Assembly (NCBI GenBank): GCA_022820625.1
Contig: JAJEFE010000169.1
Coordinates: 62,001-126,000 of the forward strand
Source: Gammaproteobacteria bacterium
GTDB taxonomy: Bacteria > Pseudomonadota > Gammaproteobacteria > Steroidobacterales > Rariloculaceae
DNA: 64,000 nucleotides
Direction: 5' to 3'
Shown in pieces: positions 1-7,105 of the stretch. Both the position numbers and the translations under genes were made by a program. Below the pieces are notes generated by a model. It had not been told where the DNA came from and made no database searches. It saw nothing but the letters and a program-made list of their open reading frames with translations. How positions within the stretch are numbered: the first letter of the stretch is position 1; every line of letters starts with the position of its first letter.

Positions 1-618
1 AAATCTCTCCTGGACAAAGCGGATATCCTGAGCAGCTTGAACCGTGCCGATCCGGTCATTTCCACCTTTTGCCTGTACTGGAATTACGTAGTGCCTTCCC
101 CGCTTGTCGATGCCCACATAGAGTTCATCGATCTCAATCTGACCGACTCCCCTGACGGCCGTTCGAAGGTGGTTCTGTAGGCTGTACGTTGTTAGGCCTA
201 GGAACGTGTCGATGAGGCGGTTGTAACGCACGATTGCCAGCAGGGCCTGTTCGTCGTCCAGCTTGTATACGCGGATCAGCTCCGGCGTTGCGTCTGGAAT
301 ATCTATGGCGACCTAGTCGCTGCGGGGGACGATCCGGACGATCCTGCCCAACTTGAAGCGGTATCGTCCTGTGCCGGCAAGTTCGATGACCCATTCCATC
401 CCGTCCGGCTGCGTCGCGATGACCGACTTGGGCAAGTCCTTGCGGAATCGGTACGAATAGATCACATCGCCCAGATTTTTCGGGAGTTCGATACCGAGGG
501 ACTCCGCTGCCGGTTCCAATTCGGTTCTCTCGAACTCGAATTCGCTCTCGCCCTCGCGAAAATGATCGAAGAAAATGGATTCGATCAGCGCATCGTAGCG
601 GTTGCCCTCTTCAGCCAT
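1..618 (-). pseudogene. Restriction-type nuclease of the RM operon, interrupted by an in-frame amber codon
   Basis: Reading from ATG at 618, the protein starts MAEEGNRYDALIESIFF. It runs about 100 codons to a TAG at 313-315, then continues in the same frame without another stop to the window edge. The downstream part keeps strong protein character: VRYNRLIDTFLG, then EIDELYVGID followed by VIPVQAKGG. This looks like a PD-(D/E)XK-type core with a QxK variant, as in nucleases encoded beside C5 methyltransferases. The start ATG overlaps the methyltransferase stop (ATGgcTGA, 618-611), so the two were translationally coupled. One nonsense change therefore probably inactivated an otherwise well-kept gene; an assembly error or suppression is possible. 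The 3' end lies outside the window. That it is the cognate restriction enzyme is inferred from position and motif. Confidence 0.75.
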
Positions 619-1942
619 GGAACCCTGCTGCCGCCAAGCGCTCCGCCTCGATATCCACCTGCCTGCGCTTTGTCGCCCCGCTCTTTCGATCTCGCCGGTT
701 CGGGAGCGGGTCCACTCCAAAGTAAGCGGCCGCTCCCGAAACATCGAGTTTCAAAAGACCCGGGTCGCCAAGGTCGATCGCACCACGCGGTCGCGTTGGC
801 GTTATCTCCAGGGCTTTCGCTATCTCGGCCGCGATCGCCCTGGCCAGCGGCGGGGGTACAGCATTTCCAATCTGTCGGGCACCATGCCACTTGGTCGCGT
901 GCAGGCGGAACCAGTCGGGGAAACCGTGCAGCCTCGCCATCTCCCGCACGGTGATGCAGCGGTCGTAGCGGTAGTGGATCGGCCGGGGGCTGGTGAATGC
1001 CCCTCGCGCTCCGTCGGTGCCTGCGCGCAACGTGTTGGACACGCCGTCTTCGTGCAGTTTGAAAAACCGGCTGATCGGTTCCACGGTGCCGGATTGCGTT
1101 TCGGCGAACCGGCGCTGCGAAATCTCCGTATGGCGGGTCCTAGCGCTAGATGTGAGTACGGTTCGTTCCCAATTCCTCACGTAGCCGAAATGCCACGCGC
1201 TGTTGGACAGGCACCGCATCTCGTTCGCGTATGCCGACGGCTTGCCGTACGCGCCGGTTGCGGCTTCATCGTCCAGCAGGAGTTCGGGCAAGCCATCAGC
1301 GTCAGGCAGGTCTCCAAGCGCATCGCCGCATGTAGGACAGTCCGGCAATCCGACAAGATCCTTCTGGCGCCCGGCGATTCCGGTTGTCGGTTCAGGATAA
1401 CCGGGGACGGGCACACCACCGCGCGCACCCATGACGATCAAGCGTTGCCGCGACTGCGGCGTTCCGTAGTTCGCGGCATTGAGCACCTTCCAGGGCAGCC
1501 GTACCGCGTACCCCGCGCCCTCGAATTCCGCCACCAACTCTTCGAGAAACGATCTGTGCCTGCCGACCGTGAGGCCCTTGACGTTTTCGAACACAAAAGT
1601 CCTGGGCCGCAATTCCGCCACGAGGCGCACGAAGTGACGCACCAACCCGTTGCGCGGATCGTCCAGCGCGCGATGGCCGATCATGGAGAATCCCTGGCAC
1701 GGGGCGCCGCCGAACACGCAGTCCACGGCCCGATCACCTATGGAGGCCGCGTCCCTGATCTCGACCGCCGACAGCTTGTCGACCGAACGCGGTATGACAG
1801 TCGTGTCGGGGAAATTGAAATGGTGAACGGCGCAATGGACCGGATCGACATCCACGGCCGCGGCGATGTCGAATCCGGCCTGCTCGAAGCCGAGGCTCAG
1901 CCCGCCCGCACCTGCAAATAGATCGATTCCGATGGGCCGCAT
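611..1942 (-). CDS. DNA (cytosine-5-)-methyltransferase
   Basis: The 443-residue protein has the ordered C5-methyltransferase motifs: IDLFAGAGGLSLGF (motif I, SAM binding, near residue 5), GGAPCQGFS (motif IV with the catalytic Cys, near 80), FENVKGL (motif VI), QSRQRLIVMG (motif VIII), and C-terminal RQIGNAVPPPLA (motif X). The region before motif IX would be the target-recognition domain. It methylates C5 of cytosine in an unknown recognition sequence. It lies downstream of vsr and overlaps the start of the nuclease gene by 8 bp, forming a vsr-M-R operon. With the nuclease frame broken it may act as an orphan methyltransferase. The start ATG at 1942 follows an AAGG-type ribosome site. All key motifs are intact. 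Confidence 0.95.
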   Translation of the reverse strand: MRPIGIDLFAGAGGLSLGFEQAGFDIAAAVDVDPVHCAVHHFNFPDTTVIPRSVDKLSAVEIRDAASIGDRAVDCVFGGAPCQGFSMIGHRALDDPRNGLVRHFVRLVAELRPRTFVFENVKGLTVGRHRSFLEELVAEFEGAGYAVRLPWKVLNAANYGTPQSRQRLIVMGARGGVPVPGYPEPTTGIAGRQKDLVGLPDCPTCGDALGDLPDADGLPELLLDDEAATGAYGKPSAYANEMRCLSNSAWHFGYVRNWERTVLTSSARTRHTEISQRRFAETQSGTVEPISRFFKLHEDGVSNTLRAGTDGARGAFTSPRPIHYRYDRCITVREMARLHGFPDWFRLHATKWHGARQIGNAVPPPLARAIAAEIAKALEITPTRPRGAIDLGDPGLLKLDVSGAAAYFGVDPLPNRRDRKSGATKRRQVDIEAERLAAAGFHG

Positions 1943-2030: not shown

Positions 2031-2438
2031 TTACCGTTCGCCCACAAAATCTTGTAGCCTGGCAGCCAGTGCTTCCATATCGTCAAGTTCGCACTGCCAG
2101 ATCACAAGCGTTTGCCATCCGAGGTCGTCGAGTTCCTCCAGCCTTGTTTTATCGCGAATGACGTTCTCATCCAACTTCGGTTTCCAGTAATTTAGCCTGG
2201 ATTTGGGAAGTCTCCCCTTGGCGCAATCGTGCCGATGCCAGAAGCAACCGTGCACGAAAATCGCCTTGCGGCGACTGCCGAACACGATATCCGGCCTTCC
2301 CGGCAGGTCCTTGCAATGCAGCCGATAGCGGTATCCCATGGCGTGGAGGCAGCGCCGGACGATCATCTCCGGCTTCGTATCGCGGCTCTTGACGGCCTGC
2401 ATGATGCGCCGGCGTTGCTGGGGGGTGCGGGTGTCCAT
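2031..2438 (-). CDS. vsr: Very short patch repair (Vsr) DNA mismatch endonuclease
   Basis: The protein is about 135 residues from MDTRTPQQRRRIM. It carries the Vsr hallmarks: RSRDTKPE-like KSRDTKPEMIVRR, YRYRLHCKDLPGRPDIVF, and the zinc/active-site segment FVHGCFWHRHDC. Vsr nicks next to T:G mismatches made when 5-methylcytosine deaminates, so it offsets the mutagenic cost of the neighbouring C5 methyltransferase. The longer frame beginning at 2492 adds 18 residues unlike the family, so I chose ATG 2438. It is the first gene of the vsr-methyltransferase-nuclease operon, with an 88-bp gap to the methyltransferase. Confidence 0.93.
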   Translation of the reverse strand: MDTRTPQQRRRIMQAVKSRDTKPEMIVRRCLHAMGYRYRLHCKDLPGRPDIVFGSRRKAIFVHGCFWHRHDCAKGRLPKSRLNYWKPKLDENVIRDKTRLEELDDLGWQTLVIWQCELDDMEALAARLQDFVGER

Positions 2439-2484
2439 GGGGATGTGTGCGGACATTGTAGCGTTGGATGGATGGAGTTCCCTC

Positions 2485-2607
2485 GCGACCAAGCACGATT
2501 GGAGGGTTCATCCGATTTATCACTGGACACCCAAGCGCATCCGTGCGCACCTAGCCATCGTCTACATGGCCTTTGCCTCAGTGCGCCACCCGACATTTCC
2601 GAGCTGA
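2485..2607 (+). pseudogene. IS1634-like transposase, C-terminal remnant
   Basis: This short frame encodes KHDWRVHPIYHWTPKRIRAH followed by LAIVYMAFASVRH and a stop. It resembles the conserved C-terminal signature of IS1634/IS4-type DDE transposases, in which a conserved Glu/Lys-rich helix leads into 'RVRPVYHW.P.RI.AH' and a hydrophobic segment. Nothing transposase-like precedes it, because the vsr start lies only about 50 bp upstream, so only the last 40 or so codons survive. It abuts the truncated HNH frame. No terminal inverted repeats could be recognised. The family assignment is from memory of the motif. Confidence 0.6.
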
Positions 2608-3158
2608 TCAGACGACTCTCCGTCAAGGCCAACGCCCCGGTGATTGGGCGTTCATTTCAGGGTCACGCAGCCGTAAGACGGTTGACCCCAGCAGACCACC
2701 GGGTGCTCGTGGATTACGCTCTGCACCTGCCGCTTGAGCCGCGGGCTCGCCTGCTACCGGAGGAGGAGTTGGAGGCCCGAATCCACCTCGGCGATCCGGA
2801 TGCTGTAAGCAGTCTCATCACGACTGAGGCCCCCGGAATCGCCGAAGAGCGTCGCCGCTACTTGTTCGAGCAAACACCACGGCGCAACCCACAGCATGTT
2901 CAAGAGCTACGGAAACTGTACGAAGGCATGTGCCAACTTTGCGGATGGAACCCCAAGTTCCTGTACCGGCGGGATCTCTGTGAAGCGCACCACGTACACT
3001 GGCTGAGCCGGGGCGGCGATGATGAGTTGCACAATATGATGCTCATCTGTCCGAACCACCACCGCGCCATACACCGGAGGGGTTGCTGCGGACGGGGAAG
3101 GAGTCCGGCGACAATAAACGTCCGGGGCCGCCGCTGCCGCCGGTCATCCCCTTCGTAA
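2592..3158 (+). pseudogene. HNH endonuclease, truncated at both ends
   Basis: The frame encodes a clear HNH module: CQLCGWNPK, then CEAHHVHWLSRGGDDE, then HNMMLICPNHHRAIHR. These give two CxxC-type zinc ligand pairs and the H-N-H catalytic residues. The preceding 120 residues are plausible protein (LTPADHRVLVDYALHLPLEP and onward) but have no convincing ATG or ribosome site; a GTG at 2640 is the best alternative. The domain ends at about 3083, where the reading frame runs into unrelated arginine-rich sequence while an Rpn-type frame takes over. Upstream it joins a transposase tail. It is best read as a fragment trapped between two other fragments rather than a working gene. HNH identity is firm; host-defence function is inference. 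Confidence 0.7.
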
Positions 3159-3823
3159 TCTACAATGGAAATCCGCTGTGGACGGCGCCGCTGGACGTTT
3201 CGAAGTTGGTCGCTCCGGCGGCACGGGAATTGGCGCGGCTGCAGCCCTCGAACCGGTACGTGCTGCTGGACATGCAACGGGCAGAGTCCAGCGGCGTGCC
3301 GGCGGACAACGCGGTCGCCTTGCAGGTGGCGCTGGAACAGGCGATGCTGGAGGAGTCGGCGATGCCGATTTGGCGCCGTGTGGAGACGGTGCTGGCCGGC
3401 CCGGAACACGCGGGGCTGCGGCAGGCGTTCGCCGCGTGGCTGCGGTGGTCGTGGACGAAGGACTACGGTGTGTTCGCGGACGGGGACGGGGCGTTGCACG
3501 TCGAGCTGGACCGAATGGAAAATGCGGGAGAGGTGGAAGCGATGGGATCGTTGGCGTTTGAGAGGTGGAAGGAGCGCAATCGGAAGAAAGAGGCGCAGAT
3601 TTTCGCGCAGGGCCGTGCGGAGGGCCTTGAATTCCATCGGCGCCAACTTGGGAGTCAGGCTGCGCTCCGCTTCGGCGCTGATGCTGGCGGACGCCTGTTG
3701 GCGTTGCTGGCAGACGTTTCGAAGCCGGAGCGATTGGCGGCGGTGGGCGACGCGATCATAGAATGCGGCACGGGCGCGGAATTGCTCGCGGCAGCGGAGC
3801 GCATCGTCGGCGGGACGAATTGA
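3083..3823 (+). pseudogene. Rpn/YhgA-like nuclease, C-terminal part (DUF4351-type tail)
   Basis: From about residue 18 the frame reads LPPVIPFVIYNGNPLWTAPL, the junction motif after the PD-(D/E)XK core of Rpn (recombination-promoting nuclease, YhgA-like) proteins. It ends with a DUF4351-like tail (HRRQLGSQAALRFG, with LLALLADVSKPERL). The N-terminal nuclease core that should precede this segment is absent; upstream sequence in this frame is the HNH fragment read in another phase. The only start is a TTG at 3083 with no ribosome site. Intact Rpn proteins are about 300 residues and act as structure-selective DNA nucleases. The remaining 246 residues would lack catalysis. Confidence 0.7.
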
Positions 3824-3919
3824 ACTCAGCGCCGACCCGCACCTTGCGCGTGGCCCGAATTCAACCAGGCAACGGCGACATCCGCCCCAGCGAGCTACAC
3901 TGGAACGAAGTCCACGGCG

Positions 3920-6900
3920 TCAGCTGGTATCGAACGAGTGCCGGAACTGAAGGCCTATCTCACGTCTGCGCTGGTTGAAACGCTGAGCGTCCTGAGCGGG
4001 TGGATCCGAAGAAAACAGGTTGTAGACCGAAAGCGCAACGCTTGACCCCTGGTTGAATCGGTAGGCCCAATTGACGTCGATCGTCAACTGACCCTCGTCG
4101 CGTTCCCACCTGGCAGTCAGGAACTCATCTTGCGGCAAATCATCAAAGGCGTTGTTCAGCCCGTCGCGGTAGCGCGCAACAACGCGGATGTCCTGGTTGT
4201 TGAGGTTGAGCGTCGCGGGGAAGACCCCCTGCCAGTGGGGCATGTCCGTTACACCGTTGAAACCCATGCCGAAGCTACGGCCGATCCCGCTACAGACGCC
4301 GTCGCTGCACAGACCGTCGCGGCCCCCGATATCCCCGAGCGGGAAGTCGTACTGCAGCGTGAAGGTCAGGGAGGGTCGGAAGTTCAACGGCCCTATCGGT
4401 GTATCGAAGTTCATGTTGGCATACAAATCGAAGAACTGCGTGTCGATATAACCGATGTTCACCGGCGAGTTGAGCAGCGTAGCGATATTTTGCCGGGTCG
4501 TGTCGAGAACGCCATCCCCATCGACATCGAAGTAGAGGGACGGATCAGCGTCGATCACCGTACCGACGCACTTGGAGCCGTCGGGGCCGACGACCGGGTA
4601 CATGAGCGAGCCATTGCTCATTCCGGTCTGCGTGTACGGGATGCCGTTGGCATCGCGAACGTAGCATTGCGAGAGCACATTGTTCGCCGTCGTCGAGACG
4701 ATCAGATCCTCGATGTCGATCTGTACGAGGCTACCGCCCACGCTGATCCGGTCGTTGACGACAAAGTCGGCGCCAAACGAGATGTTGTCCGACGTCTGGG
4801 GATCGAGGGCCGTGTTCGGCTTCGAAATACAAATGAACCCGGTGCCGGGACCCATGCCATATGTCATACCGCCGACGGTTGTGCGCGGCGGGCCCATGCC
4901 GGTGAAGATCGTTTCCGCCGCCGATTGGCTGATTGAAGGCCCCTTGAACGAGGTACCCCAGGAAGCACGCAGCGTCAACCGATCGGTCGGCGTCCAGAGC
5001 GCGGCAATCTTCGGTGAGAACTCGCTGAAGCCAATATCGTACTCTTCCTGGCGTCCGGCGACCTGGACATTGACATCCTCGCGGACCGGCAAGGCCAGCT
5101 CGAAATACGCCGAATTCACTTGTTGTTTGCCGCGGAAGTCGTTAAATACGCCGAGCGTAGCCATCTCGCCGGCATTGACCATGGCGTCGGCATCGCGCCC
5201 GACTTCTTCTTCGCGGTAAGCGATGCCGGCGGCGAGACCGATCGGCCCACCCGGCAAAGCGCCGAACTGGCCCGTGATACGCGCGTCCAGGGTGAAGAGC
5301 TCGCCTTCGAAAACATCCGTGCGCAATGGAATCAGCCAGCCCAGCAGATCCGGGTGGTTGGCAAGACCGGTCTGGGAGAGATTCGTTTGCCGCGTTGCCG
5401 CATCAGGCAGCGCCGAGCTCATGAACGGATTGTAGAAATAACAGTCGCCCATGCCCGGTGTCCCGGTGTCCGGGAGACAGTCCGGTCCACCCAGCCCGCT
5501 GATGGCCGGCGGATAGCGGTCGAGGACCACGTCACGGACGCCGGCGCGGAGATCGCTGTACTGGGCAGAAGCGTCGAGCAGCCATGTCCAGTTGGAATTG
5601 ATGTCGCCTTCGACGCCGAACGCTCCGCGGAACAGATCGTTTTGACTGAATGCGGACATCTCACTCAGAAACGGCAGCGTCTCGTCGCGGGCGTAGACGG
5701 GCTGGCCCATGCCGAAACCCGGCTGTAGCGTCTGTGCGCGGACCAGGCCCGGATGGTTGGCCGGCATCGCGAACTCGGGGCCCAGTGCGTTCTGTTCTAT
5801 GAGCCATCCCTGGGAACCGTTGTCGCCCCACTGATCGATGTCGTCGTATCGCTGGCGGCTGTAGGAGATCTCGGCGTTGACCCGCAATGCATCGCTGAAA
5901 TTGTGCTCGGCGCGGGAGAACAGGTTGATTTGTTTGACATTGTTGTTGAGCAGCCTGCCGGCGTCGTCAAAAAGGCCGTTGTCGTACGGCCGCCCACAGG
6001 CGGTAGCAGACGCGTAGTCGGACGCTTCCACCGCCGAGTCCTGCACAAGCGGCTCATCGTCTATGAGCCAACCCGCATAAAACGGGTGGCCGAAGGCCGG
6101 GTTGCCGCAGTCCGGATCGACGTATCGGGCGCCGCCCCCCGCGTTGCGATACTCCAGGGTTTCGTTGGCTTCGAGCCCGTAGCCCGTTTGGTACGTGACG
6201 TCGGGGTTCGCCAGGAACTCGTCGAATTGCGGAGAGACGTCGATGACCTCGACCAGATCCTCCTGGTGAAACTCCATGGCCACGATGATGCTCGTGTCAT
6301 CGTCACCGGCGCCGAAGATCCCTGAAATGGTCGCGTTCTTGGCATCGGTAGCTTCCAACAGCGTCCGACTGCCGATACTCATGTCGAAGCCGCGGAAGTT
6401 GTTGCGAGTGACGAAGTTGACCACGCCGGCCACCGGATCGGAACCGAAGGTGGCCGAGCCGCCGTCGAGCAACAGCTCGGTCCGCTGCACCGCAATCCGC
6501 GGCACGAGCGAGTTGATCGCGGTGCGGTACCAGCCGGTGCCGGTCGGGCTCGGATAGGGGATTGTGCGACGCCCGTTCAGCACGACGAGCGTGTTCATGT
6601 CTCCGAGACCGCGCAGATTGATCGTCGCGTTACGGTCCGAACGCGCCCGGCTCTGGCCATCATTTTCGATCTGGCTGCCGATATCGTCCTCGAAGTTCTG
6701 CGGAACGTTGTTGATGAAGAAGCTGACGAGATCGGGTGGCGCGTAAGCCACCATGTCCTCGCCCGCAATCACCGAAACCGGTGACGGCGAGTCGATGCCG
6801 GTGTAGAGAAAGGAGCCGGTGACGACGATCTCCTCCAACTCCACGCCCTGATCTTCCTGAGCCTGGAGCGGGAGGGAGAGTGCCGCGATGCAAGTGCCGA

Positions 6901-6937
6901 CGATGGCAATGTAAGAAAGTTTGCCAGATTCAAGCAT
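3920..6937 (-). CDS. TonB-dependent outer-membrane receptor
   Basis: The 1005-residue protein has an N-terminal signal peptide ending near SLPLQAQ. A TonB-box/plug entry follows (ELEEIVVTGSFLYTGIDSPSP), then a plug with NLRGLGDMNTLVVLNGRR and VQRTELLLDGGSATFGSDPVAG. The remaining 800 residues are barrel-like with alternating aromatics. It imports a large or scarce ligand across the outer membrane using TonB energy; the substrate cannot be read from sequence. The terminus, RHSFDTS, departs slightly from the usual terminal Phe. ATG 6937 follows a GGGGGA ribosome site. It stands alone between the Rpn remnant and a convergent-free gap of 168 bp before the YheT hydrolase gene. Confidence 0.93.
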   Translation of the reverse strand: MLESGKLSYIAIVGTCIAALSLPLQAQEDQGVELEEIVVTGSFLYTGIDSPSPVSVIAGEDMVAYAPPDLVSFFINNVPQNFEDDIGSQIENDGQSRARSDRNATINLRGLGDMNTLVVLNGRRTIPYPSPTGTGWYRTAINSLVPRIAVQRTELLLDGGSATFGSDPVAGVVNFVTRNNFRGFDMSIGSRTLLEATDAKNATISGIFGAGDDDTSIIVAMEFHQEDLVEVIDVSPQFDEFLANPDVTYQTGYGLEANETLEYRNAGGGARYVDPDCGNPAFGHPFYAGWLIDDEPLVQDSAVEASDYASATACGRPYDNGLFDDAGRLLNNNVKQINLFSRAEHNFSDALRVNAEISYSRQRYDDIDQWGDNGSQGWLIEQNALGPEFAMPANHPGLVRAQTLQPGFGMGQPVYARDETLPFLSEMSAFSQNDLFRGAFGVEGDINSNWTWLLDASAQYSDLRAGVRDVVLDRYPPAISGLGGPDCLPDTGTPGMGDCYFYNPFMSSALPDAATRQTNLSQTGLANHPDLLGWLIPLRTDVFEGELFTLDARITGQFGALPGGPIGLAAGIAYREEEVGRDADAMVNAGEMATLGVFNDFRGKQQVNSAYFELALPVREDVNVQVAGRQEEYDIGFSEFSPKIAALWTPTDRLTLRASWGTSFKGPSISQSAAETIFTGMGPPRTTVGGMTYGMGPGTGFICISKPNTALDPQTSDNISFGADFVVNDRISVGGSLVQIDIEDLIVSTTANNVLSQCYVRDANGIPYTQTGMSNGSLMYPVVGPDGSKCVGTVIDADPSLYFDVDGDGVLDTTRQNIATLLNSPVNIGYIDTQFFDLYANMNFDTPIGPLNFRPSLTFTLQYDFPLGDIGGRDGLCSDGVCSGIGRSFGMGFNGVTDMPHWQGVFPATLNLNNQDIRVVARYRDGLNNAFDDLPQDEFLTARWERDEGQLTIDVNWAYRFNQGSSVALSVYNLFSSDPPAQDAQRFNQRRREIGLQFRHSFDTS

Positions 6938-7105
6938 TACTGAGTCCCCCTATGGTGTGCAGCGCATGTCTTGAGCGATGCTCTTCTGTTGTGCGAGCGC
7001 TACAAGTATTCCGGTAGCATCGTACGCTAGTGGCCCAGGCGTTTCAATTCTGCGACACAGACTGCTCTACTCGCACCGCCGCATGGTCGCGGATCTGCTG
7101 CGCGG

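Follow-up and report, generated by a model that had tools for sequence, protein, structure and literature searches.

Remnants of three genes, including an RpnS-type unit, at a probable recombination seam beside a vsr-dcm operon

The window analysed here is a stretch of 64,000 nucleotides from the draft genome of a gammaproteobacterium (G000; 169 contigs, 4.94% contamination), and close to its left end parts of three genes follow each other directly beside a DNA methyltransferase operon. The original prediction for this place was a transposase tail, an HNH nuclease without a start and an Rpn-type protein without its nuclease core, fused end to end as a scar of repeated insertion and deletion in a defence hotspot. 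The locus raises two questions: how such an arrangement came about, and whether anything that was left in it could still serve a purpose.

Three gene pieces and their joints

Window positions 2483-3823 consist of three gene pieces that abut without spacer and lie in three different frames (Table 1). The transposase-like tail shares its frame with an ORF at 2338-2607 (position mod 3 = 1), the HNH piece with an ORF at 2229-3158 (mod 3 = 0) and the Rpn piece with an ORF at 3083-3823 (mod 3 = 2). Comparison with intact homologues fixed the breakpoints at 2482, where homology to the sister species G005 ends, at 2589-3076 for the HNH piece, and at 3076/3077 for the onset of rpn homology, which continues to the stop at 3823. 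The seam starts at 2483 and not at 2485 as first noted. Frames and breakpoints together confirm the three truncated pieces end to end. Their DNA matches elsewhere in the same genome score 670 and 564 bits, well above anything chance would give. When the sequences on both sides of the HNH/rpn joint are read, the parental matches share one overlapping base.

The flanking operon is composed of vsr, dcm and a third gene in place of the restriction gene, and only 26 bases separate the start of vsr from the seam, as was expected from the predicted position next to a restriction-modification operon. The combination of vsr, dcm and a gene in the restriction-gene place is that of known vsr-dcm operons, but here the third gene (window 1-744, minus strand) belongs to no Pfam family and is interrupted by an in-frame stop at 313-315, whereas in G005 its frame stays open for 297 aa. 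A tRNA scan of the whole window found none.

Table 1. Coordinates of the seam and of the genes on both sides of it, given as positions in the window.
Feature	Position	Strand	Basis
dcm-like C-5 cytosine DNA methyltransferase, flanking operon	611..1942	-	PF00145 E=2.5e-62; G005 orthologue
vsr mismatch endonuclease	2031..2456	-	PF03852 E=9.2e-32; ATG 2456 taken as start, listed ORF starts at TTG 2492
Left seam edge, last 26 bases upstream of vsr in common with G005	2457..2482	.	G005 homology ends at 2482
Transposase-like C-terminal tail, frame 1, without start or upstream part	2483..2588	+	Weak likeness: 38% over 24 aa to an own-genome DDE_Tnp_1 protein, E=0.056
HNH nuclease fragment, residues 92-253 of 285	2589..3076	+	DNA identity 95% to G001:C257, 90% to the intact copy on the same contig; PF01844 47/47
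rpn remnant, 246-aa open frame 3083-3823	3077..3823	+	69% protein identity to C73 from residue 100; PF04754 108-193/203
Shine-Dalgarno-like GGAGAGG of the internal RpnS-type start	3527..3533	+	Clade-A alignment
RpnS-like C-terminal unit, 93 aa, ATG 3542	3542..3823	+	Equivalent start in 13/13 full-length rpn genes examined
Putative TonB-dependent receptor	3920..6937	-	Right-hand block in common with G001; 96-98% DNA identity to G001:C226 over 4001-7000

The first piece has the least certain identity. Pfam gave no match for the 89-aa ORF that contains it, and its best likeness in its own genome is the short alignment to a protein with a PF01609 DDE transposase domain listed in Table 1. It also resembles one G005 stretch (E = 0.026). 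A search in plasmids gave no match, and among 274 genomes of the class (E<=1e-6) and 398 genomes of the phylum (E<=1e-4), the own genome counted in both sets, the window itself was the sole match. A piece in a frame of its own is thus present, as predicted, while the transposase label depends on a likeness of 38% over 24 aa and is better worded as transposase-like.

The HNH piece is better defined. The Pfam HNH motif is complete (PF01844, 47/47 positions, 27.9 bits against a cut-off of 21.4), and what is missing lies outside it: compared with the 285-aa HNH gene of this bacterial family, with which the fragment shares the motif and, over the kept part, 95% DNA and 95% protein identity to the copy in the sister species G001, it lacks 91 N-terminal residues, the start included as predicted, and also the last 32. 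The same contig carries an intact 285-aa copy (G000:C27:59123-59980), roughly 5 kb further left. We considered that the fragment is a local duplicate of this copy, but it is closer to the G001 gene (dS 0.17 vs 0.29) and this origin was rejected. Over 162 codons, 18 of the differences between the fragment and G001 are synonymous and 4 nonsynonymous (dN/dS 0.06), and pairs of intact HNH genes gave dN/dS values of 0.12-0.18. When the changes were assigned to branches by majority vote, with four other copies as outgroups, the fragment received 9 (8 synonymous, 1 nonsynonymous), G001 received 10, and 3 were ambiguous. Judged from these substitutions, the HNH piece is either recently cut or still constrained, because free drift during most of that time would give mostly nonsynonymous changes.

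The abutment of the pieces without spacer could also be read as a single intact HNH-Rpn fusion gene, the arrangement which, if present in homologues elsewhere, would speak against a scar. Such a gene was not found in the five genomes that carry a full-length HNH gene among 296 of the order, which is a small sample. The gene is free-standing each time and ends at 285 aa in 5/5 full-length relatives; the window fragment is its only further occurrence. In four of the five HNH neighbourhoods, of 8-16 kb each, no rpn-like stretch was present, and in the fifth the only one is the window's own piece. Since the two frames also differ in the window, a fusion gene is extremely improbable. Slow decay of three neighbouring genes through many small deletions would equally leave three pieces that are all cut, as observed. 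In that case the long open frames of the HNH piece (162 codons) and the Rpn piece (246 codons) and the strongly synonymous changes in the former would be difficult to explain, and we regard slow decay as very unlikely.

Two flanks with different relatives

The two sides of the seam resemble different sister species, both of the same genus as G000. On the left, homology to G005 continues to the edge, with 97% identity over 2300-2482 and 98% at the end. In steps of 500 bases, with negative positions left of the window, the match to G005 shows an identity of 96-100% from -5499 to -500, 85-93% from -499 to 0, 87-90% over 1-1000 and 94-98% over 1001-2482; left of -6628 it is 80-92% and right of 8001 it is 80-94%. 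The values between -218 and 1000 are just 85-90%, inside the range of the surroundings (80-95%). By these figures the operon part (-499 to 1000) resembles G005 no more closely than the sequence around it does. This weakens the idea of an imported block but not the seam. On the right, the match to G001 has an identity of 86% over 3501-4000, 96-98% over 4001-7000 and 82-95% beyond.

Gene order agrees with these identities. Contig C226 of G001 carries the Rpn tail, the gene at 3920..6937, which we take to encode a TonB-dependent receptor, and the next two genes, all in window order, and ends inside rpn. In G005, contig C59 carries the restriction-place gene, dcm and vsr, followed by a two-gene pair, presumably mazEF-like, one more gene, and then the window genes from 8194 on. 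Between the operon and the 8194 genes this contig has neither the three pieces nor the TonB receptor. The intact HNH gene and a 552-aa gene, both left of the operon in G000, are found on G005:C51, and the two G005 contigs probably adjoin. Beside the third operon gene, G005 has an extra gene (L039, 9806-10549) and the start of a further gene (L043, 1-299) with a contig break between them; we assume that the former is HNH-like and the latter an IS3-type transposase.

Comparison of the same locus in relatives thus gave other cargo in G005, on one contig, and a match to G001 for the right side from rpn onward. This supports the predicted junction scar in a variable place rich in defence genes. The predicted repeated insertion and deletion fared less well: there are three junctions, yet one complex joining event could yield them, and the HNH piece looks young.

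A draft genome with this number of contigs and this level of contamination raises the suspicion of an assembly or binning artefact that joined unrelated sequence. The long relatives of the pieces in their own genome are 76-90% identical, rather different for assembler confusion, and on each side of the seam one of the sister species agrees in sequence and gene order. An artefact is for these reasons a very unlikely explanation.

In view of the above, positions 2483-3823 are with good probability a fairly young recombination seam that joins two genome blocks, with remnants of three genes left between and at their ends. A left stretch of G005 type, ending in the R-dcm-vsr operon, would have been joined to a right stretch of G001 type that starts inside an rpn gene, and fragments of two genes, one transposase-like and the other an HNH gene of G001 type, would have been caught between the two. 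Joining without long homology appears the likeliest route, because the HNH/rpn joint, which is the one joint with two known parents, shares a single base. Of the three joints, the two that border the transposase-like piece are defined by one flank each, as this piece has no close parent. In this event the nuclease half of rpn would have been lost, while the C-terminal RpnS-type unit would have kept its own ribosome-binding site and start codon.

The Rpn remnant and its internal start

The Rpn piece begins at residue 100 of the 350 residues of the copy on contig C73. It lacks the EFQS motif of residue 78 and retains the natural stop. Its DNA is 76-83% identical to the rpn genes on contigs C73 and C130, and in the genome_contigs set its relatives were found at two loci, both in G005. 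Only positions 108-193 of the 203 of PF04754 (YhgA-like) are covered, a family that all three full-length relatives tested do match, and the nuclease-core profile (A3) gave no match at C27, the window locus. The C-domain profile (A4) did match there with 105.8 bits (E=4.3e-30), and this part is homologous to the C-domain of full-length Rpn proteins in the same genomes. The predicted loss of the nuclease core is hence correct, residues 1-99 being absent, but the view of the piece as a mere remnant overlooked a whole RpnS-like antitoxin unit with a ribosome-binding site and an ATG (3527-3544).

According to Zhong et al. (2023, PMC10327210), rpn genes of E. coli yield both a full-length nuclease toxin, RpnL, and an inhibitor, RpnS, which is the C-terminal domain made from an internal start; RpnL without RpnS is toxic, and RpnS occurs as separate genes too. 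The number of four-residue repeats sets the specificity, and one extra repeat abolished inhibition. The rpn genes examined here share with this system the internal start before the C-terminal unit and four-residue repeats in variable number. They differ in that the repeats lie about 23 residues past the start codon instead of 8-20 (PMC10327210), and the locus itself differs in that its toxin half disappeared where the gene was joined to unrelated sequence. Compared with DUF4351 (PF14261), the window unit gave no match and the C-terminal domains of two relatives scored 13.8-13.9 bits, below the curated cut-off of 25. Compared with the orphan antitoxins of toxin-antitoxin systems, the unit is likewise an antitoxin-type piece without a toxin partner, but its antitoxin lies inside the toxin gene and loss of the toxin is a truncation of the same gene.

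The internal start is conserved in the family. In 13/13 full-length rpn genes examined, out of 14 in the family, an in-frame start codon (ATG or GTG) with a Shine-Dalgarno-like motif lies at residue 239-261 (G014:C44 was left out, and a copy truncated by the end of its contig has the start at residue 203). The site was picked by inspection and then checked, and the 13 copies are related and do not count as independent cases. As a control, such a motif precedes 12 of the 72 remaining internal ATG codons and occurs at 718 of 4413 codon positions. Synonymous distances within clade A are nevertheless 0.34-1.34. The motif reads GGAGAGG in 8/9 and GGAGAAG in 1/9 of the aligned full and truncated copies, and the glycine codon at the site is GGA in 9/9, although the four full-length clade-A genes use GGA for just 9 of their 129 remaining Gly codons.

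Structure prediction with AlphaFold2 gave an all-helical model for the window unit, with a long first helix and three short ones (mean pLDDT 85, four sequences). A fold search against the PDB returned no match at E<=0.001, and the RpnAS structure 7TH0, a helical bundle, was absent among the matches listed, in the fold search as in the sequence search. The window unit carries one four-residue repeat, and the full-length clade-A copies in its own genome carry two (C73) and eight (C130). Comparison of the window Rpn piece with full-length pairs for selection gave no usable difference.

One-sided loss in the rpn genes of the family

In the 22 genomes of the family the nuclease-core profile found 22 places and the C-domain profile 43. 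The 43 C-domain places comprise 14 full-length genes (one of them 5'-cut by a contig end), 7 longer other proteins, 5 places near a contig end, which were left unjudged (G014:C46, C47 and C59; G001:C226 and C149), and 17 interior copies without the core. The 22 core places comprise the 14 in full-length genes, 5 N-terminal remnants that neighbour a core-less copy, two of them containing a stop, and 3 at a contig end without C-domain. Away from contig ends, 17 rpn copies have lost the core and kept the C-domain and none shows the reverse, although the 17 are not independent: four form the array on G005:C67, two are on G005:C56, and several have a common deletion. No stop was found in the matched C part of any of the 17, and 11 of them, the window's included, keep start and ribosome-binding site; the six without are G005:C36, G000:C95, G005:C56:130794 and three of the C67 copies.

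The truncations took several forms. In L139 (1127-1750), L133 (1262-1966) and L141 (1123-1536) the core was lost by in-frame deletion, and the first ~13-64 residues are joined to the C-terminal part. L131 (G005:C67) and L132 (G000:C143) have a common deletion that fuses RIADLCWLD to RDPAAQYP, and two of these deletion copies, from two species, have a stop (TAA, TAG) at the same joint codon. In three pairs among the common-deletion copies (G000:C143 and two of G005:C67) dN/dS is 0.36-0.85 for the N remnant and 0.27-0.79 for the C part; the synonymous distances disagree between the two parts, which suggests exchange between paralogues among these copies. Locus L144 (2608-4464, G005:C56) contains a full-length rpn and, right after its stop, a second frame that repeats part of the C-terminal half with another repeat region. 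These tandem frames resemble the rpnE/ypaA pair of E. coli as described in PMC10327210.

The Rpn C-domain is also found on seven longer proteins, of which one is Uma2 by Pfam, five appear alike by eye, and the seventh (G005:C62) was grouped by frame length only. In L087, L089, L090, L091, L112 and L117 an Rpn-type C-domain is at the end, with short repeats in the linker. An internal start common to the Uma2-type proteins was considered and rejected: in the six inspected, none with a ribosome-binding site is shared, and there are only single candidates such as that in L089.

Two readings of the surviving unit can be considered, both compatible with a recombination seam. In the first, the seam would carry a working orphan RpnS antitoxin, and the family's rpn genes, cut repeatedly to antitoxin-only genes by deletions that take the nuclease core and spare the intragenic antitoxin, would form a lasting reserve of inhibitors against Rpn toxins, whether resident or incoming. 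The open C parts and the starts kept in 11 of the 17 copies speak against idle remnants. It is a tentative proposal and rather unlikely as it stands. In the second reading the seam is real but none of its pieces is in use: the RpnS part would be open simply since the event was recent, in keeping with the young appearance of the HNH piece, and toxin-only copies would be missing since they are lethal. This we find somewhat probable. The toxicity of RpnL without RpnS in E. coli, as stated in PMC10327210, would be enough to remove toxin-only copies, and the single repeat of the window unit differs from the two and eight of the resident copies, where one extra repeat abolished inhibition in E. coli (PMC10327210). 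Start and ribosome-binding site are missing from six of the 17 copies without a core, the selection tests gave no support for use, and a scan for sigma-70-like promoters over 2350-3950 found 0 where 0.3 were expected.

The one-sided loss itself fits the logic of toxin-antitoxin systems, yet lethal toxin-only genes would give the same pattern even if the antitoxin-only genes were idle. Toxicity of toxin-only genes could thus be the cause of the bias towards loss of the core. Among the open-licence papers listed, judged by title and abstract opening, one deals with RpnS and none treats core-less rpn copies as a class.

As such the scar is ordinary, though it is well resolved via two sister species that match its two flanks. 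Of wider interest is the one-sided pattern of loss among rpn genes, where the shared reading frame means that truncation could leave either part. It makes testable now whether antitoxins encoded as a gene within a gene may become free-standing immunity genes through simple deletion.
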